From: Burkholderia pyrrocinia
GTDB taxonomy: Bacteria; Pseudomonadota; Gammaproteobacteria; Burkholderiales; Burkholderiaceae
Reading direction: 5' to 3'
Length of the DNA: 64,000 nt
NCBI RefSeq assembly: GCF_018417535.1
Contig: NZ_CP070978.1
Coordinates: 3,038,001 to 3,102,000 of the forward strand
The notes beneath the pieces are model-generated. The model was given only the letters and a program-made list of their open reading frames with translations, did not search any database and was not told the DNA's origin. Made by a program: the position numbers and the translations under genes. Within the stretch, counting starts at the first letter, position 1, and every line of letters begins with the position of its first letter. Below, piece by piece: positions 7,269 through 42,667 of the stretch.

Positions 7269-8231
7269 ATGCACAATCATCTCGTCGTCGCGCTCGCCTA
7301 CGATCGCCTCTGCACGTTCGAATTCGGCTGCGTGGTCGAACTGTTCGCACTCGAACGCCCCGAACTCGGGGTCGACTGGTATCGCTTCGCGGTATGCGCG
7401 AGCGAGCCGGGGCCCGTGCGCGCGGCGGGCGGCATCACGGTCGCCGCGCCGTACCGGCTCGCGACGCTCGATCGCGCGGACACCATCGTGATTCCCGGCT
7501 GGCGCGATCCGGACGAACGGCCGCCCGAGCCGCTGCTGAAGAAGCTGCGGGCCGCGCATCGGCGCGGCGCGCGGCTCTGTTCGATCTGTTCGGGCGTGTT
7601 CGTGCTGGCGGCGGCCGGCGTGCTCGACGGGCTCACCGTGACGACGCACTGGCGTTACGCGGAGCGCCTGCAGGCACGTTATCCGGCGCTGCGCGTGAAT
7701 CCCGATGCGCTTTACGTCGACGAAGGGCAGATCGTCACGTCGGCCGGTTCGGCGGCGGGGCTCGACATGCTGCTGCATCTCGTGCGCCGCGATCACGGCG
7801 GCGCCATCGCGAACCGTGTCGCGCAACGCCTCGTGCTGCCGCCGCATCGCGACGGCGGGCAGGCGCAGTTCGTGCCGCGCCCGGTCGCGCCGGGCGGCAG
7901 CGACCGGCTCGCGAAGCTGATCGACTGGATGCGTGCGCACGCGGCCGAGCCGCACACGCTCGCGTCGCTCGCCGCGCAGGCCGCGATGAGCACGCGCACG
8001 CTGCAGCGTCAGTTCGCGGACGCGACGGGGATGTCGCCGCTCGCGTGGCTGATCCGCGAGCGTGTGAATGTTGCGAAGGACATCCTCGAAGCGCAACCCG
8101 CGCTGTCGCTCGCGCAGGTCGCGGCGCGTGCGGGGTTCGGTTCGGAGGAATCGCTGCGCCGGCATTTCCGGCGCGTCGCGGCGACGAGCCCGGCCGCGTA
8201 TCGGCGCGGGATGGATCGCGGCGGAAGATAG
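7269..8231 (+). CDS. ftrA: FtrA-like GlxA/AraC family transcriptional regulator
   Basis: A 320-residue regulator with an N-terminal DJ-1/PfpI-like domain (about residues 5-165, with the ARLCSICSGVFVLAAAG nucleophile-elbow region) and a C-terminal AraC/XylS double HTH (about 215-315, including SLAAQAAMSTRTLQRQFADA and RAGFGSEESLRRHFRRV). This architecture, next to a divergent rhodanese gene, matches proteins annotated FtrA. The N-terminal domain probably senses a small molecule but is not expected to be an active amidase. The symbol is given by family resemblance and context. Confidence 0.85.
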   Translation: MHNHLVVALAYDRLCTFEFGCVVELFALERPELGVDWYRFAVCASEPGPVRAAGGITVAAPYRLATLDRADTIVIPGWRDPDERPPEPLLKKLRAAHRRGARLCSICSGVFVLAAAGVLDGLTVTTHWRYAERLQARYPALRVNPDALYVDEGQIVTSAGSAAGLDMLLHLVRRDHGGAIANRVAQRLVLPPHRDGGQAQFVPRPVAPGGSDRLAKLIDWMRAHAAEPHTLASLAAQAAMSTRTLQRQFADATGMSPLAWLIRERVNVAKDILEAQPALSLAQVAARAGFGSEESLRRHFRRVAATSPAAYRRGMDRGGR

Positions 8232-33515: not shown

Positions 33516-34271
33516 TTACTTCGGCGCCGTGCATGCGTCGATCCCGCCCGCGATCGCGGTGGACAGGCGCTGGATCGTCTCGCGCCGCGCGAGCCGCGCT
33601 TCTTCGTCGGGATTGACGATCACGCCGGCCTCGACGAGCACGGCCGGAATCGGCGCGGTGCGCAGCACGACGAGATCGTCGAAGCGGTGGATGCCGAGTT
33701 GCGGGTCGATCAGCGGGCGATTCTCGCCGCGGATCGGCTGCGCGTGATACAGCGATGGCCGTTCGCCGGCCGCGACCAGCCGCTCGGCGATCGCCTTCGC
33801 GCAACGCAGGCTTTCCGCATAGTGCGGATTGCGCTCCGACACGAACACCGAGAAGCCGCGGAATTCGCGTTGCCGGCCCGCGTCGATGAATTGTTGCTGC
33901 ATCGAGTCGTGATGGATCGACACGAACAGGTTTGCGTCGGGCGCCTGCGTCGAGCGCTGGTCGAGTGCGATCTCGCGGCCGTCGGCCGACGTGCGCAGCA
34001 CGCGGTCGCCGTGCGCGGCGAGCTTTTCGGCGACCGCTGCGGACAGGTCCAGGTTGTACAGGTATTCGACGCGGCCGCTCGCGCCGGTGGAGCCCGGGTG
34101 CGCCGGCGTATGACCGGTGTCGACGACGATGTAGCGCCCGGATGCGGGCTCGGCGCCGGTGCTGTCTGCCGCATGCAGCGCCGGCGGCGCGCCGAGCAGC
34201 GGGGCGCAGGCGAGCACGCGTGCGGCGGCGCGCACGAGCGGGCGAAGGCTTCGGATGGTTCGGTTCGTCAT
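33516..34271 (-). CDS. N-acetylmuramoyl-L-alanine amidase (Amidase_3)
   Basis: A 251-residue exported peptidoglycan amidase. Residues 1-33 are a basic, hydrophobic signal sequence ending LLGAPPALHAAD. The zinc ligands are visible: H in YIVVDTGHTPAHPGSTG, E in GRVEYLYNLDLS, and H in NLFVSIHHDSMQQQ, with the catalytic E in IPAVLVEAGVIVN. It cleaves the amide between N-acetylmuramic acid and the stem peptide. Start codons at 34271 or 34292 are possible; neither has a strong ribosome-binding site. Confidence 0.85.
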   Translation of the reverse strand: MTNRTIRSLRPLVRAAARVLACAPLLGAPPALHAADSTGAEPASGRYIVVDTGHTPAHPGSTGASGRVEYLYNLDLSAAVAEKLAAHGDRVLRTSADGREIALDQRSTQAPDANLFVSIHHDSMQQQFIDAGRQREFRGFSVFVSERNPHYAESLRCAKAIAERLVAAGERPSLYHAQPIRGENRPLIDPQLGIHRFDDLVVLRTAPIPAVLVEAGVIVNPDEEARLARRETIQRLSTAIAGGIDACTAPK

Positions 34272-34397: not shown

Positions 34398-34420
34398 AGC
34401 GCCGGCTGGAAGCCGGCGCT
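34398..34420 (-). terminator. Hairpin at the end of the FAD oxidoreductase gene
   Basis: A perfect 10-bp inverted repeat AGCGCCGGCT/AGCCGGCGCT with a three-base loop begins at the last base of the stop codon. There is no long T run afterwards, so termination may be partial or Rho-aided. Confidence 0.45.
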
Positions 34421-36039
34421 CAGGCGAGCACGCGCCGGGCCGCGAGCATGCCCCAGTACGACGCTTCCTCGAACAGCGACAGCCCGGACAGGTCCGCATG
34501 CGCGAACACGACGGGGCCGTCGGCATCGCGCAGCGCGAGCAGCCCCGGCCGGCCGAGGAAGCCGACGTCGGGCGTCGCCATCGCATGGCCGCGCACGGTG
34601 ATCTCGAGCGCCGTCGCGTGCTTCCACAGCTCGCGTCCATAGGCAGCTTGCAGGTCGATCGCCGCCTGTTCTCGCAACGCGTCGGGCTTCGCCTGCGCGA
34701 GCCAGCGGCGCGTGTCGTCCGGCGCTTGCGTGCTCAACGCCTGATATGCGGAGAACACCGAACGCGTTGGCGGCGACATCCGGATCAACTGGTGGGTCGA
34801 CACGACATAACCGAGCCCCGCGCCGTCGTAGACGACGTTGTCCCACGCGAGCGGCACGCCGGCTTCCTCGGCCGGCATGCCGTCGAGCAGGAAGTTGGAC
34901 ACGAGCCACGGCGCGCGCGGCGGCAGGTCGCGCGCGGGCTCGAAGCCGTATGCGGAAAGCTGCGGAAACACGCGCGCCGCGACGAACAGCGGCATCGCGC
35001 ACACGACGCGTCGCGCCTTCAGCGTGAACGTCGACAGCACGCCGTCGTCGCCGATGCGCGCACACAGCACGTCGACACCGCCCGCGCGTTCGGTCGCCCG
35101 CACGGCGAAACCGTCCCGCGACCACGCGTTCGAGCCGGTGCGCGCGGTGATCGAATCGGTCAGCTTCGTCACCATCGTGTGCAGCCCGTCGGGCCAGGTC
35201 AATACCGCGCCGTCGCCCGCATCGCCTGCGTGGCCGCCGCGCGACGAGAAATAGTGCAGGCCGGCCCACGCGGACACGTGCTCGTATCCCGCACCGTAGT
35301 CGTCGCGACAGCAATAGTTCAGGTACCAGTGCAGCGCTTTCGCGGTGTAGCCCTCGTCGAGCAGCCACTGGCGGAACGAGCGCCGGTCGAGTGCGCGCCA
35401 GCGCGGGTCGCGCGACGATTCCGCGATCGGGATGCAGAACACCTTGCGGCCGTCGGCGCCGCGTGCGGTGCGCAGCCCGTCCGTGTACGCGAAGAAGCGT
35501 GCCTGTTGCGCGAGTTCGTCGGCGCCGACGCCGGCCGTCGGCACGATGCCGTCCTGCCACTGCCCGGCGATGAAGAGCCGTTCGTCGGGCGCATGGACGA
35601 GCGCGCGCTCGTCGTACACGGGGCGTGCGGAGAACGGCGCGGATTCGATCACGCCGAGATCGGCGAGCATGTCGCGCAGATGCGCGGATTCGAGCGACGG
35701 CAGCGGCAGGTAGTGCGCGCCTTTCGGATAACCGAGATCGCCGAAGCGGCCGCCGGCCGCATTGCCGCCGAATTCGGGGCCTGCGAGCACCGCGAAGCGC
35801 GTGTGGCCCGCGCGTGCGAGCTGCCATGCGCACGACAGCCCGGCCGCGCCCGCGCCGAGGATCGCGATGTCCGTCTCGATCGTGCCGGAAGGCGGCGGCA
35901 GCGCGGCATGGTCGCGCAGCGCATGGCCTTCGCGCATGCCGGGGTAACCGACGCGCGGCGTCGTCTCGATCCAGCCGGTGCGGCCGCACGCGGCCAGCGA
36001 CGCGGCCGCCGACGCGACGAGGAACGTGCGACGGTCCAT
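34420..36039 (-). CDS. Tat-exported FAD-dependent oxidoreductase (amine-oxidase-like)
   Basis: A 539-residue flavoprotein. The N-terminus MDRRTFLVASAAASLAACG combines a twin-arginine motif with a lipobox-like LAAC, so it is probably exported folded with its FAD and may be lipid-anchored. The dinucleotide fold is at about residues 58-75 (DIAILGAGAAGLSCAWQL), with a C-terminal flavin segment around GFLGRPGLLALRDADGPV. It resembles flavin amine oxidases. Its ATG shares a base with the stop of the membrane-fused spermidine synthase gene, implying coupled translation and a linked, perhaps polyamine-related, role outside the cytoplasm (inference). Confidence 0.8.
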   Translation of the reverse strand: MDRRTFLVASAAASLAACGRTGWIETTPRVGYPGMREGHALRDHAALPPPSGTIETDIAILGAGAAGLSCAWQLARAGHTRFAVLAGPEFGGNAAGGRFGDLGYPKGAHYLPLPSLESAHLRDMLADLGVIESAPFSARPVYDERALVHAPDERLFIAGQWQDGIVPTAGVGADELAQQARFFAYTDGLRTARGADGRKVFCIPIAESSRDPRWRALDRRSFRQWLLDEGYTAKALHWYLNYCCRDDYGAGYEHVSAWAGLHYFSSRGGHAGDAGDGAVLTWPDGLHTMVTKLTDSITARTGSNAWSRDGFAVRATERAGGVDVLCARIGDDGVLSTFTLKARRVVCAMPLFVAARVFPQLSAYGFEPARDLPPRAPWLVSNFLLDGMPAEEAGVPLAWDNVVYDGAGLGYVVSTHQLIRMSPPTRSVFSAYQALSTQAPDDTRRWLAQAKPDALREQAAIDLQAAYGRELWKHATALEITVRGHAMATPDVGFLGRPGLLALRDADGPVVFAHADLSGLSLFEEASYWGMLAARRVLA

Positions 36040-37553
36040 CAGCGCAGCACGTGTTTCCAGTCGTCGTCGAAGCGGCGCACGAGCGGCTGGTCGTTGAGTT
36101 CGTTCGGCGACATCGGCAGCGCCGGCATGTCGGCCGGGAAGTGGAACATCTCGGTGGCTGTCTGCGCGTCGAGCCAGCGCGTCGGTACCGAGTAGCGCGT
36201 CGGCACCGTGAAGTCGCGGCGCTTGCCGGCGATCACGAAGCCCCAGTCGCCGAACGACGGCACGTAGCAGTGGTACGGCCACGTGTTGAGCCCGGCTTCG
36301 TGCAGCGTCGCGATGATGGTCCAGTACGCGTGCGGCGCGAAATACGGCGACGTCGACTGGATCACCGCATAGCCGTTCTCCGACAGGTGGCGCGCGAGCA
36401 GCCGGAACACCGGCACCGAATACAGGCGGCCGAGCCCGAAGTTGGTCGGATCGGGAAAGTCGACGACGATCGCGTCGTACACGTCCGCGTTCGATTCGAG
36501 CCAGCGCACCGCATCGTCGTTGATCACGTGCACGCGCGGATCCTTCAGCGAACCCTGGTTCAGCTTGACGAGCGGCACGGACGTCGAGAACAGCTTCGTC
36601 ATCGCGGGATCGAGATCGACCAGCGTGATCTGTTCGAGGTTGCGGTGCTTGAGCAGCTCGCGCACCGCGAGGCCGTCGCCGCCGCCGAGCACGAGCACGC
36701 GCTTGGCCCACGGCAGCGCGTCGATCGTCGGGTGGATCAGCGCCTCGTGATAACGATGCTCGTCGCGCGACGAGAACTGCAGGTTGCCGTTCAGGTACAG
36801 CCGCATGTCGTCGTGCCATTGCGTGAGCACGATGCGCTGGTACGGCGTCGTTTCCGAATAGATCGTCTCGTCGCCGTACACGCCATGTTCGGCCCAGTGC
36901 GTGATGCGGTCCGACAGCGCGAACCCGGCGACGAGCAGCCCGATCACGAGCGCCGCGCGCATCAGCTTGCCGCGCACGTTGCGGATCTCGTCGCGGAACA
37001 GGTGGGTCGTCCACAACGCGACGAATGCGTTCAGGAGCCCGAACAGGAAGCTCGTGCGCAGCAGGCCGAGACGCGGCGCGAGCACGAGCGGGAAGATCAG
37101 CGACACGGCGAGCGAGCCGAGATAGTCGAAGGTCAGCACTTCGCTGACGGTATGGCGGAACGCCTGGCGCCGCTGCTGGAACGCGCGCATCACGAGCGGG
37201 ATCTCCATCCCGATCAGCAGGCCGAGCGCGAGCACCAGCGCGTAGAGCGCCGCGCGGAACGGCGCGGCGAGCCACGCGAACACCGCGAACAGCAGCGCGG
37301 CCGATACCCCGCCGAGCAGGCCGACGAGCAGCTCGATGTCGACGAAGCGGTCGAGCACGTCGTCGTCCTCGACGAACTTCGCGAGCCACGAGCCGATCCC
37401 CATCGCGAACAGGTAGCTGCCGATCACCGACGAGAACTGCAGGATCGAATCGCCGAGCAGGTAGCTCGCCAGCGCGCTGCTGATCAGTTCGTAGCCGAGC
37501 CCGCACGACGCGAGCACGAGGATCGACAGGACGAGCGCACGCTTATGCAGCAT
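36039..37553 (-). CDS. Membrane-fused spermidine synthase-like aminopropyltransferase
   Basis: A 504-residue fusion. Residues 1-210 hold about seven hydrophobic helices (LVLSILVLASCGLGYELISS onward). Residues 230-480 are a spermidine synthase domain with DEHRYHEALIHPTI, the decarboxy-SAM binding VLVLGGGDGLAVRELLKH, ITLVDLDPAMTKLF, and the catalytic-type VVDFPDPTNFGLGRLYSVP. SpeE enzymes transfer an aminopropyl group from decarboxylated SAM to an amine. The membrane fusion suggests the product is made at or passed to the membrane. Decarboxylated SAM could come from the SpeD encoded on the divergent arm. Confidence 0.87.
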   Translation of the reverse strand: MLHKRALVLSILVLASCGLGYELISSALASYLLGDSILQFSSVIGSYLFAMGIGSWLAKFVEDDDVLDRFVDIELLVGLLGGVSAALLFAVFAWLAAPFRAALYALVLALGLLIGMEIPLVMRAFQQRRQAFRHTVSEVLTFDYLGSLAVSLIFPLVLAPRLGLLRTSFLFGLLNAFVALWTTHLFRDEIRNVRGKLMRAALVIGLLVAGFALSDRITHWAEHGVYGDETIYSETTPYQRIVLTQWHDDMRLYLNGNLQFSSRDEHRYHEALIHPTIDALPWAKRVLVLGGGDGLAVRELLKHRNLEQITLVDLDPAMTKLFSTSVPLVKLNQGSLKDPRVHVINDDAVRWLESNADVYDAIVVDFPDPTNFGLGRLYSVPVFRLLARHLSENGYAVIQSTSPYFAPHAYWTIIATLHEAGLNTWPYHCYVPSFGDWGFVIAGKRRDFTVPTRYSVPTRWLDAQTATEMFHFPADMPALPMSPNELNDQPLVRRFDDDWKHVLR

Positions 37554-37563
37554 GGGACGTCCG

Positions 37564-37593
37564 TTGTGCAGCGGTCGGCAATGTGGATATACT
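37564..37593 (+). promoter_or_regulatory. Candidate sigma-70 promoter of the DUF350-speD operon
   Basis: TTGTGC (37564-37569) and TATACT (37588-37593) are spaced by 18 bp in the 121-bp divergent gap. The -10 is close to consensus; the -35 keeps only TTG and one further match. It would give a leader of about 75 nt before the DUF350 start. Confidence 0.45.
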
Positions 37594-37674
37594 GGCGCGG
37601 ATTTTCGTGGGGCGGCCATTGACGGGCCGGCCGGCGACGGGGCGGCGAACCGAGCACAAAATCCGAGGGAAAGA

Positions 37675-38061
37675 ATGAATAGTGCCTATCTTTATGCGGT
37701 TCATTTACTGTCGGCGTTCGTGCTGCTTCTTGTGTTCGCGGCAGTGTACCTGAAGGTCACTCCGTTCGACGAACTGGCGCTGATCCGCGACGGCAATGCG
37801 GCCGCGACGCTGTCGTTCGGCGGCGCGCTGATCGGTTTCTGCCTGACGCTCGCGTCCAGCATTGCGCACAACTCGACGCTCGGCGAAGTCGTGATCTGGG
37901 CCGTCGGCGCGATGATCGTGCAACTGATCACCTATGCGGCGCTGACGCGCCTGATACCCGGCATGAATCATGCGATCGAGGATCGCAACGTCGCGATGGG
38001 CGGCCTGATGGGCACCGCGTCGCTCGTCGTCGGCATCATCAATGCCGCCTGCCTGACCTGA
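37675..38061 (+). CDS. DUF350 family inner-membrane protein
   Basis: A 128-residue protein with four hydrophobic segments, matching the DUF350 (YjfL/UPF0719) pattern with LSFGGALIGFCLTLASSIAH and the C-terminal MGGLMGTASLVVGIINAACL. The family function is unknown. In E. coli the relative YjfL is encoded near a glutathionylspermidine-synthetase-like gene, which echoes the polyamine link here. GAGGGA precedes the ATG. It starts the plus-strand arm of the module. Confidence 0.82.
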   Translation: MNSAYLYAVHLLSAFVLLLVFAAVYLKVTPFDELALIRDGNAAATLSFGGALIGFCLTLASSIAHNSTLGEVVIWAVGAMIVQLITYAALTRLIPGMNHAIEDRNVAMGGLMGTASLVVGIINAACLT

Positions 38062-38087
38062 CGCGCCACGCGTCCGAGGAGACCGAC

Positions 38088-39131
38088 ATGAGTCTGGGTT
38101 CATTCATTCGCAAGCAGTTCATCGACGTCCTGCAATGGACGGAAGACACCGACGGCGTGCTGGCCTGGCGCTATCCGATGGAAGACCAGGAGATCCAGTA
38201 CGGCGGCAAGCTGACCGTGCGCGAAACGCAGGTCGCGATCTTCGTCAACGAAGGCAAGGTCGCCGACGTGTTCCAGCCGGGGCTGTATACGCTGGAAACG
38301 AACACGCTGCCGGTGCTCACGTACCTGCAGAACTGGGACAAACTCTTTCAGTCGCCTTTCAAGTCGGACGTCTATTTCTTCAGCACGCGGCTGCAGCTCG
38401 GCCGGCGCTGGGGCACCGCGCAGCCGGTGACGATCCGCGACCGCGAATTCGGCTTCGTGCAGGTGCGCGCGTTCGGCATCTACTCGTACCGGATCGTCGA
38501 CGCGGCCGCGTTCCACCGCGAGGTCAGCGGCACACGGGCGGAATACACGGTCGACGATCTCGAACAGCAACTGCGCAACCTGGTCGTCACCGCGCTGAGC
38601 ACGACGTTCGGCTCGGCCGACGTGCCGTTCGTCGACATGGCCGCGAACCAGTCGCTGCTGTCGCAGCGCGTCGCCGACGCGCTGGTGCCGGTGTTCACGC
38701 GCTACGGCCTCGCGCTCGACGCGTTCGCGGTCGAGAGCGTGTCGCTGCCGGCCGAGTTGCAGAAGGCGCTCGACCTGCGGATCGGCGCGGGGATGGCCGG
38801 CGATCTCGCGCGCGCCACGCAATACCAGACCGCGCAGGCGATTCCGCTGGCCGCGCAGAACCCGGGCGGCATCGCCGGTATCGGCGCGGGGCTCGCCGCG
38901 GGCGCGGCGATCGGGCAGGCGATGGCCGGCCAGATCGCGGGCGCCGCGCAACCGGCGCCGGCCGCGCAGCCTGCAGCGCCGGTGGCTGCCGCCCAGTCGG
39001 CCGCGCCGGCCGACGGCACCGATTACGTGCAGCGGCTCGAACAGTTGAAGGCGCTGTTCGACAAGGGCCTCGTGACCGAAGACGAATATTCGCGCGCGAA
39101 GGCCGAGATCCTCGCGAAGCTCACGCGGTAA
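38088..39131 (+). CDS. SPFH/band-7 domain protein with C-terminal SHOCT segment
   Basis: A 347-residue protein. Residues 40-230 form an SPFH-like domain (QVAIFVNEGKVADVFQPGLY, REFGFVQVRAFGIYSYRIVD, ADVPFVDMAANQSLLSQRVA). Residues 260-310 are a Gly/Ala/Pro-rich linker. The C-terminus YVQRLEQLKALFDKGLVTED is a SHOCT motif. There is no obvious N-terminal membrane helix, so membrane association may be peripheral or through the linker. SPFH proteins organise membrane microdomains and are linked to envelope stress. GAGGAG precedes the ATG at 38088. Confidence 0.85.
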   Translation: MSLGSFIRKQFIDVLQWTEDTDGVLAWRYPMEDQEIQYGGKLTVRETQVAIFVNEGKVADVFQPGLYTLETNTLPVLTYLQNWDKLFQSPFKSDVYFFSTRLQLGRRWGTAQPVTIRDREFGFVQVRAFGIYSYRIVDAAAFHREVSGTRAEYTVDDLEQQLRNLVVTALSTTFGSADVPFVDMAANQSLLSQRVADALVPVFTRYGLALDAFAVESVSLPAELQKALDLRIGAGMAGDLARATQYQTAQAIPLAAQNPGGIAGIGAGLAAGAAIGQAMAGQIAGAAQPAPAAQPAAPVAAAQSAAPADGTDYVQRLEQLKALFDKGLVTEDEYSRAKAEILAKLTR

Positions 39132-39140
39132 GCGTCGCGC

Positions 39141-40649
39141 ATGTTCAGCACTTCGTGCCCCCAGTGCGGCGCGCCGGTCGAGTTTCGCTCGGCGGCGGCG
39201 GTGATGGCCGTCTGCGCGTTCTGCCGCAGCACGCTGCTCAAGCGCGGCACCGACGTCGAGCGCATCGGCGAGCTGGCCACGGTGCTCGACGATGCGTCGC
39301 CGATCCAGATCGGCACGGCCGGCCGCTACGGCAAGCGCACGTTCACGGTGCTCGGCCGCATCCAGATGACCTACGACGCCGGCGCGTGGAGCGAGTGGTA
39401 TGTCGTGTTCGACGACGGCGCGTTCGGCTGGCTGTCGGATGCGTCGGGCCAGTACGCGGTCACGGTGCGCGAGCCCGACGATGTATCGGGCGGCGCGTGG
39501 CCCGCGTTCGGCACGCTCGAACCGGGCATGCGGATCGACCACGGCGGCCGCGCGTATCTCGTGTCCGACGTGCGTACCGCGCGCTGCACGGGCGGCGACG
39601 GCGAACTGCCGTTCCGCGTCGATGCCGGCTGGGAGGCGCGCGTCGTCGACCTGCGGACCGGCAACGCGTTCGCGACCTACGACTATTCCGACGCCGCTTC
39701 GAACGGCGGGAGCCCGGCCATCTATTCGGGCGAGGCGCTGGAATTCGACGCGCTCGCATTCACGGGGCTGCGCGATACGCAAGCCGATACGCGCGAGAAG
39801 CGCGGCGCGGAGATGGTGCCGTTCGCGTGCCCGAGCTGCGGCGCGCCGCTGTCGTATGCGCCGAACGTGGCCGACTACGTCGTGTGCGGCAGTTGTCACG
39901 CGGGCGTGCGGTGCACGGCCGAGCAGCAGACCGTGTTCGCGGCGCAGCGCAAGCTCGAAGCGGTGAAGGGCGCGCTGGAACTCGGCGCGATCGGCACGTT
40001 CGACGGCGTGAAGTACACGGTGATCGGCATGATGCGATGCCGCGTACCGGGCGACGACGAGACGTGGGACGAATACCTGCTGCTGAACCCGAAGCGTGGC
40101 TTCCTGTGGCTCGTGCAGAGCGAAGGGCGGTGGGAACGCGTGCAGGTGCTCGACCATTGGCCGACGATCGGCAGCGAATCCGATGTGACCGACGGCGGCA
40201 AGACCTACCGCCTGCGCGAGGAATACGAATCGGAGGTCGTCTATGTGGTCGGTGCGTTCAACTGGCGCGTACAGGTGGGCGATCGCACGTCGATCATCGA
40301 CTACGGCTGGCAGAAGGACAAGCTGACGCGCGAGCGCAGCGCCGCGGAGATCGTGTGGTCGCGCGCGCGGCCGCTGTCGGGCAGCGCGCTCGCCGAACGC
40401 TTCGGCACGCCGGCGCTCGCGGCGGCCGCCGCAACGGGTGCCACCACGTCGACGGGCCTGTTCGGCGGCAAACATCCGCACAGTTTCGGGCCGCTGCCGT
40501 GGGTGTTCAGCGCGCTGCTCGTGATCTTCAACATGGGCTCGCTGTTCTCGTTCAGCGGCCGCTCCGTCTACGTGCTGGTCGGCCTGCTGGTGCTGTGGCT
40601 GCCTGAATGGTTGTGGAAGGGCTTCGCATCGGACGGGGGCAACGCGTGA
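39141..40649 (+). CDS. DUF4178 zinc-ribbon membrane protein
   Basis: A 502-residue protein with two zinc-ribbon/DUF4178 units. CPQCGAPVEF with CAFCRSTLL opens the first (residues 6-30), and FACPSCGAPLSY with VVCGSCHAG the second (about 229-255). Each is followed by a beta-rich DUF4178 domain (for example VLGRIQMTYDAGAWSEWYVV and YTVIGMMRCRVPGDDETWDE). The C-terminus has two short hydrophobic helices (LPWVFSALLVIFNMGSLFSF and VYVLVGLLVLWLPEWLW). The function is unknown; this family often occurs with DUF350 and SpeD-type genes. Its stop overlaps the next start (GTGA). Confidence 0.85.
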   Translation: MFSTSCPQCGAPVEFRSAAAVMAVCAFCRSTLLKRGTDVERIGELATVLDDASPIQIGTAGRYGKRTFTVLGRIQMTYDAGAWSEWYVVFDDGAFGWLSDASGQYAVTVREPDDVSGGAWPAFGTLEPGMRIDHGGRAYLVSDVRTARCTGGDGELPFRVDAGWEARVVDLRTGNAFATYDYSDAASNGGSPAIYSGEALEFDALAFTGLRDTQADTREKRGAEMVPFACPSCGAPLSYAPNVADYVVCGSCHAGVRCTAEQQTVFAAQRKLEAVKGALELGAIGTFDGVKYTVIGMMRCRVPGDDETWDEYLLLNPKRGFLWLVQSEGRWERVQVLDHWPTIGSESDVTDGGKTYRLREEYESEVVYVVGAFNWRVQVGDRTSIIDYGWQKDKLTRERSAAEIVWSRARPLSGSALAERFGTPALAAAAATGATTSTGLFGGKHPHSFGPLPWVFSALLVIFNMGSLFSFSGRSVYVLVGLLVLWLPEWLWKGFASDGGNA

Positions 40650-40795
40650 TCCGGTTCATCCTCTACGGCCTCTACGGCCTGATCGTCGTTACGCTGTTCA
40701 GTTGCGCATCGATCGGCGGCAGCGGTTCGGGCGGCGGCGGCTGGGGCAGTTCGTCGGCACGCAGCGGCTACTCGTCGTACGGGTCGCACAAGTGA
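40646..40795 (+). CDS. 49-residue Gly/Ser-rich membrane peptide
   Basis: A short frame starting with GTG that overlaps the DUF4178 stop by four bases and whose own stop overlaps the speD start by four bases, so both junctions are GTGA. It encodes a hydrophobic N-terminal helix IRFILYGLYGLIVVTLFSCA with a lipobox-like cysteine, then a Gly/Ser-rich tail ending YSSYGSHK. The double overlap strongly supports translation. It may be a small lipoprotein or membrane anchor of the module. Confidence 0.72.
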   Translation: MIRFILYGLYGLIVVTLFSCASIGGSGSGGGGWGSSSARSGYSSYGSHK

Positions 40796-41175
40796 CCGCA
40801 CGCGACGGGATCGCGCCGCCGCGCGCGACGCTCGGCTCGCACGTGCTGGCCGACCTGGCCGGCATCGATGCGGCGCTGCTGCGCGACGCCGCGCGGCTCG
40901 AGGCGATCCTCACCGAAGCGGCGCAACAGGCTGGCGCGCGCGTGATCGGCGCGCACTTCCATCATTTCGGCGGCGAGCATGGCGTGACGGGCGTCGTGCT
41001 GCTCGCCGAATCGCACATCACGATCCATACGTGGCCGGAGCATCGCTTCGCGGCCGTCGACGCGTTCATGTGCGGCGCGGCGCGTGCGGCCGATGCGGTC
41101 GATGCGATCGCCGCTGCGTTCGGCACGCAGGCGCAGGTCCGGCAGCAAGTGGCGCGTGGCGGCGCATTGACCTGA
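40792..41175 (+). CDS. speD: S-adenosylmethionine decarboxylase proenzyme
   Basis: A 127-residue class 1B SpeD. The self-cleavage site is visible in LLAESHITIHTWPEHRFAAV; cleavage before Ser74 creates the pyruvoyl group. VIGAHFHHFGGEHGVTGVVL and VDAFMCGAA are also family motifs. The enzyme makes decarboxylated SAM, the aminopropyl donor for spermidine synthases such as the divergent membrane-fused one. The GTG at 40792 overlaps the previous stop and begins the protein at a normal length. Confidence 0.92.
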   Translation: MTARDGIAPPRATLGSHVLADLAGIDAALLRDAARLEAILTEAAQQAGARVIGAHFHHFGGEHGVTGVVLLAESHITIHTWPEHRFAAVDAFMCGAARAADAVDAIAAAFGTQAQVRQQVARGGALT

Positions 41176-41201
41176 GCGAGCGTTGCGGACCTGTTACCGA
41201 T

Positions 41202-41588
41202 ATGCGTAAAAGAGCAGGAATCACCGCATTGCTCGGCTTTGCGTTCTTCGCCGGCAACGTTGCTGCGGAGTTGCCGCCGAAGCCGCCCGGGCCCGTCGTG
41301 ATGATCCACTTCGACTACGACGAGAAGGACCGGGCACGGCTTCATGCACTGGAACGCCGGCTGGATCGCGCAGTGAGGCAGGCAGGGGCGGGCGAGCTCG
41401 GCGAGACCGAATTGCATCGCGACGGCAACGACGGCTATCTGTACCTGTATGGCAGCAGCGCCGATCGGCTGTACGTAGTGGCACGCCCGATCCTGAAATC
41501 GTCAGGATGGCTGACCGGTACGGAAGTCACGTTGCGCCGCGATTCCGGTGCGGAAACGTTCTCGATGGGCCGGGGCGAAGCACGTTAG
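41202..41588 (+). CDS. Secreted protein of unknown function
   Basis: A 128-residue protein with a clear signal peptide (MRKRAGITALLGFAFFAGNV, cleavage after VAA) and a mature part of mixed alpha/beta character (VVMIHFDYDEKDRARLHALE, DGYLYLYGSSADRLYVVARP). It is not a recognised family. It follows speD by 26 nt and probably belongs to the same transcription unit. The remaining 190 bases before 41780 hold inverted repeats likely used for termination. Confidence 0.65.
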   Translation: MRKRAGITALLGFAFFAGNVAAELPPKPPGPVVMIHFDYDEKDRARLHALERRLDRAVRQAGAGELGETELHRDGNDGYLYLYGSSADRLYVVARPILKSSGWLTGTEVTLRRDSGAETFSMGRGEAR

Positions 41589-41779: not shown

Positions 41780-42667
41780 TCAGCGATTGATTTCGTCCGC
41801 CGAGATCAGCTCGGCCACCAGCACCTGCGCGGGCCCCTGCAGGTAATACTCGTGCTCGAGCGGTTCCCGCAGCTTCATGAAGGTATCCGAACCGACCTGC
41901 ATCGTCTCGCCCGCATGCATGCGCGCACCGCTTTCCAGCAAGTAGTGCATCACGTTGTTGAAGATGCCCGAATAGCGTTCGCCTTCGTGATGGCCTTCCG
42001 CGAGCGCGGCGAAATCGGGCAGGCCGAACACGTCGGCGCCATAGGTGCGCATCCACACGCCTTCGACGCCTTCGACCTCGTATTTCACGAAGCCGCAGAA
42101 GAACAGGTTCAGCGGGATCTCGCGCAGCACGTCGAGGCTTTCCTTGCCGAGTTTCTTCGCATCGAAGACGCTGGCCGGCAGCGACGTGTGCGCGTGTTCG
42201 TTCAGCACCGCGAGGCCGTTCTGCTCGGCCAGCGCGCCGGCGACGGCCGCCAGCGCGACATACTGGTCGAGCGGATCCGCTTCGTGTCCGGCGTAGTAGA
42301 GGATCACGTGGCTGCGGCTCGCGCGTACCTGCTGCTTCAGGTCCTGCCCATAGTGGGCGGGCGCGACGCATGCTTCCAGCGATTCGGACGGATAGGGCGC
42401 ATCGAAGCCGACCAGCCGGACGACGTGGTTGCCCCAGCCGGCGAGCCCGAATACCTGCTCCAGCGTCGGCTCGGTTTCGACGCGCGCCTGCTTCATGCTC
42501 GGATGGTAGGCGCGCAGCGCGGCCGTCAGCGCCGCGATATCGACCTGCAGCGGGCCGTCGAAGACGACCGTCACGCTCAGCGGATGCTCGACGTCGGACG
42601 CCGCGACCAGTGCGGCAGGGCTTTCGGGTGCTTCTTTGCGGCCAAAGAATCGGGATATCAGGCTCAT
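41780..42667 (-). CDS. DUF4261 domain protein
   Basis: A 295-residue cytoplasmic protein. LSVTVVFDGPLQVDIAALTA and RSHVILYYAGHEADPLDQYV in the first half, and the C-terminal PLEHEYYLQGPAQVLVAELI, fit DUF4261 proteins. The family function is unknown; members occur near membrane and contact-dependent systems. It begins MSLISRFFGRKEAPE, an amphipathic start. It converges on the polyamine-module operon. Confidence 0.7.
   Translation of the reverse strand: MSLISRFFGRKEAPESPAALVAASDVEHPLSVTVVFDGPLQVDIAALTAALRAYHPSMKQARVETEPTLEQVFGLAGWGNHVVRLVGFDAPYPSESLEACVAPAHYGQDLKQQVRASRSHVILYYAGHEADPLDQYVALAAVAGALAEQNGLAVLNEHAHTSLPASVFDAKKLGKESLDVLREIPLNLFFCGFVKYEVEGVEGVWMRTYGADVFGLPDFAALAEGHHEGERYSGIFNNVMHYLLESGARMHAGETMQVGSDTFMKLREPLEHEYYLQGPAQVLVAELISADEINR

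Follow-up and report, generated by a model that had tools for sequence, protein, structure and literature searches.

Within a 64,000 nucleotide stretch of the Burkholderia pyrrocinia genome (contig NZ_CP070978.1, positions 3,038,001 to 3,102,000, hereafter the window) there is a divergent gene module that combines S-adenosylmethionine decarboxylase (SpeD) with an aminopropyltransferase fused to a membrane domain (TM-SpeE) and a membrane-anchored peptide of 49 residues that ends in lysine. On balance we favour, with confidence only a little above even, the explanation that TM-SpeE aminopropylates the C-terminal lysine of this anchored tail. Outside of Burkholderia, a lysine-ended anchored protein is present in 48 of the 51 TM-SpeE loci, and the proteins that carry the lysine are often unrelated. 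The peptide had been given no role in the first-pass annotation of the window. It is now the proposed substrate, with the same tail sequence in 23 of the 24 Burkholderia loci (the window and 23 others), and the role of this overlooked peptide seems to be what is new.

The module is made up of two arms that diverge from a 121 bp gap. The host genome is 8.54 Mb in three contigs, with the window on the contig designated C2. The features are as follows.

34420 to 36039, minus strand: flavin adenine dinucleotide (FAD) protein, flavin amine-oxidase-like, with a twin-arginine signal and a lipobox-like LAAC, a predicted twin-arginine translocation (Tat) lipoprotein (Pfam Amino_oxidase and NAD_binding_8 above cut-off; the twin arginine and hydrophobic stretch are also in relatives)
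36039 to 37553, minus strand: TM-SpeE, a seven-helix membrane domain fused to an aminopropyltransferase domain (NF002956, AlphaFold2 model, fold matches to solved spermidine synthases, catalytic residues)
37554 to 37674, no strand: divergent intergenic region of 121 bp (from coordinates)
37675 to 38061, plus strand: DUF350 (YjfL-like) membrane protein (Pfam PF03994, 115 bits)
38088 to 39131, plus strand: SPFH (Band_7_1) protein with a C-terminal SHOCT (Pfam Band_7_1 254.6 bits, SHOCT 33.1 bits)
39141 to 40649, plus strand: DUF4178 protein in which the domain occurs as two stretches, with CxxC pairs and with membrane helices at the C-terminus (Pfam PF13785, 106.8 bits; AlphaFold2 model)
40646 to 40795, plus strand: 49-residue membrane-anchored peptide, the proposed TM-SpeE substrate, with a GTG start overlapping the DUF4178 stop (kept in 23 of 23 Burkholderia loci)
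40739 to 40792, plus strand: last 18 codons of the peptide, GWGSSSARSGYSSYGSHK, the final lysine being the residue proposed to be modified (13 different DNA sequences among the loci)
40792 to 41175, plus strand: SpeD, with a GTG start overlapping the peptide stop (AdoMet_dc 119.6 bits; TIGR03330; sole match in the genome)
41202 to 41588, plus strand: secreted-looking protein, probably outside the module (no Pfam or NCBIfam match; present in 12 of 23 Burkholderia loci)

The gene order, coordinates, overlaps and domain names of the first-pass annotation were confirmed by Pfam, NCBIfam and the coordinates. In the minus arm the SpeE and FAD protein genes share one base, and in the plus arm there are two 4-base GTGA overlaps, one between DUF4178 and the peptide and the other between the peptide and SpeD. 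The Amino_oxidase domain scores 33.9 bits against a cut-off of 19.8, and Spermine_synth scores 113.6 bits. No Pfam family was matched by the 49-residue peptide or by the last gene. The latter had been included in the module but, on its distribution, is probably not core to it.

The 49-residue open reading frame consists of a hydrophobic anchor, a Gly/Ser linker and a short tail. The only departure from the identical 18-residue tail is one S-to-A change. The different DNA sequences encoding the tails carry silent changes, and the region before the tail varies more. One copy of the peptide (P0006) often has Leu for Ser, Cys for Arg and Tyr for His, as though many C-to-T changes were present in its DNA. 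Because a sequence search with the peptide reached only Burkholderia relatives and one further protein (six proteins in total), gene position was used to trace the tail in other loci. The corresponding peptide of a Novosphingobium plasmid is 48 residues of different sequence, ending SGYTGPSHK. A lysine-ended protein is present in all 27 regions from other DUF4178-bearing genomes, including L071, where TM-SpeE lies just beyond the fetched region, approximately 10 kb away (L110). Carriers in these regions are separate short peptides (with ends such as GGGGHK, YGPTHK, FGRVK and LRGGK), longer lipoproteins, or the DUF4178 protein itself, at its own end past the membrane helix (GGYSSGGGHK). Where the lysine tail is separate, the DUF4178 protein often has an acidic end, for example GSDWTDED or DSADEDDD (L060, L062, L069, L077, L080, L081 and L084); the DUF4178 protein of the window does not. 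The plasmid loci have a lysine-ended tail in 7 out of 7 cases. For the TM-SpeE loci that lack DUF4178 (17 loci from 16 genomes), the lysine prediction was written before the data arrived, and a lysine-ended anchored partner was found in 14 of these held-out loci.

The rule was also assessed with a pick that was blind to the last residue, taking from each locus the gene with a hydrophobic stretch and the highest Gly+Ser content at positions −21 to −2. The picked gene ends in lysine in 41 of the 51 loci, one of these being TM-SpeE itself (L107). With the picks restricted to a Gly+Ser content of at least 0.35, a limit set by us, lysine is the end in 35 out of 37, and the remaining two are wrong picks (L077 and L081), the lysine-ended peptides being located elsewhere in both loci. 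The blind pick overlooked a lysine-ended protein found otherwise in L088, L094, L097, L098, L103 and L106. As a control, lysine is the last residue for 32 of the 452 remaining genes called in these regions, a set that comes from a permissive gene caller and has spurious frames in it. When the last 20 residues are removed from 49 tail proteins, the remainder fall into 10 groups with no detectable similarity between groups. These 49 were preselected as lysine-ended, so that 49 out of 49 is no test of the rule, and the short ones may be distantly related.

A different terminal residue is seen beside a different polyamine enzyme. In Escherichia coli, the DUF1190 proteins YgiB and YjfM adjoin YgiC and YjfC, which have the RefSeq name peptide--spermidine ligase, and the DUF1190 ends are SRSMGG and ARGHWGG. 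There are 76 DUF1190 matches in 397 genomes of the phylum, the same set as was searched for TM-SpeE, and 74 have a readable frame, although among the weakest matches several seem to be doubtful members of the family. Their tails end in -GG in 55 of 74 cases, with 12 of the other 19 ending in Gly or Ser and none of the 74 in lysine. A YgiC-like neighbour is present for 29 of the best 30 matches, these 30 out of the 76 loci having been examined. No DUF1190 match is present in the host genome, where the 49-residue peptide instead ends in His-Lys (HK). Judged from these sequences, the last residue of the tail follows the enzyme, with a carboxylate that would serve for ligation as against an amine that would serve for extension.

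TM-SpeE matches the NCBIfam model NF002956 (polyamine aminopropyltransferase, PRK03612) with 704.5 bits, the cut-off being 472. The AlphaFold2 model, with a mean predicted local distance difference test score (pLDDT) of 84.0, has seven long helices followed by the catalytic domain, and in a fold search the catalytic part matches solved spermidine synthases. Residues D365, D368 and Q399 and the GxGDG motif are invariant in 52 of 52 aligned TM-SpeE sequences, E. coli SpeE being aligned as well. The acceptor-side loop, IPTYYGG in E. coli SpeE, is PSFGxWG in TM-SpeE (Ser in 51 of 52, the remainder in all 52). Within the membrane helices, E117, D143 and N175 are present in all 52 sequences and E22 in 51. 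The presence of these residues in the membrane suggests that a cation, for example decarboxylated S-adenosylmethionine (dcSAM), is bound there or passes through. Summed over the N-terminal segment and loops 2-3, 4-5 and 6-7, Lys+Arg has a mean of 11.3 and a minimum of 8, against a mean of 1.2 and a maximum of 4 in loops 1-2, 3-4 and 5-6, and the bias is the same in 52 of 52. These sequences were read from stop to stop and the N-terminal segment may therefore hold untranslated codons; without it the means are 8.7 and 1.2. Based on this charge pattern and the seven spanning helices, the catalytic domain is predicted to be outside the membrane.

The grouping of these genes is not due to chance, since the complete set of seven (FAD protein, SpeE, DUF350, SPFH, DUF4178, peptide and SpeD) is present in all 23 Burkholderia loci retrieved by the DUF4178 query, counting as present an SPFH gene split over two frames in L012, and TM-SpeE is present in every genome with DUF4178. 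In the 397 genomes, DUF4178 was found in 28 (E ≤ 0.001; 27 above the family cut-off) and TM-SpeE above its cut-off in 44, including all 28 of the former. The Novosphingobium plasmid has the complete set arranged as a single operon. The genome scan with a single DUF4178 sequence returned Burkholderia only, and the distant loci come from a wider genome search and from plasmid records. Plasmid matches H17 and H19 are outside the counts, as is the fetched Rhodovulum locus L092, in which SpeE is truncated. The latter (plasmid positions 7944 to 8648) is a 234-residue TM-SpeE fragment without the membrane domain or partners and is probably a remnant. On an Alteromonas mediterranea plasmid (L091), SpeD and DUF4178 have a TelA-like 'toxic anion resistance' gene lying between them.

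The distribution of SpeD follows that of TM-SpeE. SpeD was found in 34 of 61 Burkholderia genomes, with TM-SpeE above cut-off in exactly the same 34. A soluble SpeE-like match is present in all 61, including the 27 without SpeD or TM-SpeE, and SpeD is therefore linked with the membrane module and not with bulk spermidine, the supply of which is an unlikely function. Bulk spermidine synthesis was set aside as an explanation on these distributions. The claim that this is a conserved membrane polyamine module with arms that travel together has thus held, and neither separate occurrence of the arms nor bulk spermidine supply, the two findings that the first-pass annotation named as counting against it, was seen. 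The SpeD of the module is the only SpeD match found in the host genome. The soluble SpeE-like gene of the same genome (L003, C1:2467035-2467823) no longer has the Gln or, in its DxxDP motif, the second Asp; in the alignment this paralogue reads DLTPP where E. coli SpeE has DCTDP.

The flavoprotein starts with MDRRTFLVASAAASLAAC, where a lipobox-like motif (LAAC) comes after a twin arginine; because of this motif it is probably a Tat lipoprotein. By eye, the twin arginine is present in 17 of 17 relatives and the lipobox-like motif in 15 of 17, from a set of 19 with L079 and L088 left out. The Amino_oxidase domain is above its cut-off, no named oxidase equivalog reaches the NCBIfam cut-off, and a sequence search of the PDB gave three weak matches. 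The flavoprotein is present as a single copy in 15 of the 44 TM-SpeE genomes, and the tails are HK in all 15. Four plasmid loci have it, with HK or HGK tails. Of the 29 genomes lacking the flavoprotein, the tail is known in 26 and is HK in one (G074). For the DUF4178 protein the AlphaFold2 model has a mean pLDDT of 86.2, and a Foldseek search with it against solved structures gave no credible match among the 50 rows listed (TM-scores of 0.06–0.12, with a few to 0.17).

SpeD makes decarboxylated S-adenosylmethionine and SpeE transfers the aminopropyl group. The gene sets, tail rule, catalytic residues and co-occurrence are taken from sequence and the topology is predicted; the lysine acceptor, the passage of dcSAM, the oxidation step and the role in physiology or membrane stress are parts that we infer. 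In the proposed mechanism, dcSAM would be produced in the cytoplasm by SpeD and carried to the outer face of the membrane by the TM-SpeE membrane domain with its invariant acidic residues. TM-SpeE would then move the aminopropyl group onto the peptide, at the amine on the side chain of its C-terminal lysine. Like putrescine, this side chain is an amine with four carbons, so that its extension would leave an end resembling spermidine. The decorated His-Lys end may then be oxidised or otherwise processed by the Tat-exported flavoprotein, and SPFH-SHOCT, DUF350 and DUF4178 may assemble the complex at the membrane. The first-pass annotation had proposed that an aminopropylated amine is made at the membrane. 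The membrane polyamine module is retained, but the acceptor is probably the lysine of the peptide and not a small amine, and the charge pattern points to the outside of the membrane. Its suggestion that the module acts in envelope stress may also apply.

It is possible, although we would place it at somewhat less than an even chance, that there is a class of envelope systems in which an outward seven-helix aminopropyltransferase, fed with dcSAM via its own membrane domain, modifies the C-terminal lysine of an anchored tail. In the His-Lys branch the tail would be oxidised by the Tat-exported flavoprotein, and the class would be the amine-side counterpart of Gly-Gly peptide-spermidine ligation. 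If true, this would explain the recurrence of polyamine genes beside PspA, SPFH and DUF350, the polyamine part being on a membrane protein tail and not a free metabolite. It would also supply a substrate, and a mass shift to seek, for operons of open function, place aminopropyl transfer outside the cytoplasm and make open reading frames that are short and unannotated central to the system. We know of no such protein modification in bacteria, and it would be a new kind.

The conservation of the tail and its co-occurrence with TM-SpeE would equally be expected if the lysine, with its putrescine-like side chain, were a pseudo-substrate, occupying the acceptor pocket of TM-SpeE in unmodified form and acting as a sensor or regulator of free polyamine synthesis. 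The retention of all of the catalytic residues is consistent with this as well. However, it leaves unexplained both the Gly-Gly ends of DUF1190 tails beside peptide-spermidine ligase and the association of the flavoprotein with the tail His, and is considered unlikely. Slightly less probable again is that the lysine is an anchor, with an L,D-transpeptidase joining the tail to peptidoglycan by analogy with Braun lipoprotein while the product of TM-SpeE is a small polyamine unconnected with the tail. Such a role, for which Braun lipoprotein is the precedent, would suit anchored envelope proteins that are small and end in lysine, but the lysine rule tracks TM-SpeE across unrelated carriers and is absent from the DUF1190 proteins. 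Very improbable is the supply of spermidine or another free polyamine at the membrane by SpeD and TM-SpeE with the tail as a structural subunit, which would suit the NCBIfam family name, the retained catalytic residues and the sole SpeD in the genome but leaves the fixed tail, outward topology and exported flavoprotein unexplained, and 27 of 61 Burkholderia genomes without SpeD and TM-SpeE still have the soluble SpeE-like gene.

Several points weigh against lysine aminopropylation by TM-SpeE. The aminopropyl chemistry is itself inferred from sequence, and to our knowledge there is no precedent for dcSAM transport. The outward topology depends on helix 7 spanning the membrane; this helix is hydrophobic in every sequence, with a 17-residue Kyte-Doolittle mean of 1.53–3.14 (median 2.22), but it is the weak point here. 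Orientation of the peptide by charge is also weak, with 13 of 20 short peptides being more positive before the helix than after it. No lysine tail was found near TM-SpeE in L107 and L108, and L095 is interrupted by a contig end. G074 has an HK tail with no flavoprotein found in its 230-contig assembly, and the link between the flavoprotein and the tail His is no more than suggestive, as it runs parallel with SPFH-type modules and related lineages. The loci are likewise not phylogenetically independent.

The neighbourhood is already known in outline. Ravi et al. 2024 (PMC11237479), the only source in which the term DUF4178 was found in the open-licence literature, place PSP-linked polyamine operons with a seven-transmembrane-fused spermidine synthase, DUF350, DUF4178, a lipoprotein and CesT/Tir-PspA in one group. 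A separate group in that paper includes a variant in which AdoMet decarboxylase and polyamine oxidase accompany a band-7/SHOCT protein. In the suggestion of these authors, what the systems monitor is polyamines or, alternatively, the aminopropylation of other substrates. The first-pass annotation had not taken these closely related operons into account. On the descriptions in that paper, the window merges parts that were placed in separate groups. With the first group it shares the seven-helix SpeE, DUF350, DUF4178 and a small anchored protein, but there is no Pfam match to CesT/Tir-PspA among the eight genes listed above and the two flanking them, which are an N-acetylmuramoyl-L-alanine amidase (Amidase_3) gene at 33516-34271 and a DUF4261 gene at 41780-42667 by Pfam. 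With the variant it shares Band-7 with SHOCT, AdoMet decarboxylase and a polyamine oxidase-type domain. The ATP-grasp ligase of Ravi et al., related to glutathionylspermidine synthetase, has no counterpart by GSP_synth match in the ten proteins scanned, the rest of the genome not having been searched. The passages of the paper on these systems do not include a C-terminal lysine, an outward topology or a substrate role of the tail. Searches of the open-licence literature gave no paper that, judged by title or abstract, shows a membrane spermidine synthase aminopropylating a C-terminal lysine.

Compared with soluble SpeE, TM-SpeE has the same fold and catalytic residues, but differs in the seven-helix domain, the predicted outward catalytic domain and the PSFGxWG loop. 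Polyamine-derived groups on protein lysine side chains occur as deoxyhypusine in eIF5A and as the polyamine-modified lysines of silaffins. Those are made by other enzymes on internal lysines, whereas a C-terminal lysine and the direct use of dcSAM are proposed here. Braun lipoprotein is a small anchored envelope protein in which the C-terminal lysine is the chemical handle, joined to peptidoglycan. It has this lysine in common with the window peptide, but the Braun system is without a polyamine enzyme. In both YgiB-YgiC and YjfM-YjfC, as in the window, an anchored or secreted Gly/Ser-rich tail protein stands beside a polyamine enzyme, and YjfM is also accompanied by DUF350 and a PspA-family protein. 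These pairs have a Gly-Gly tail with an ATP-grasp ligase, whereas the window has a lysine tail with an aminopropyltransferase.

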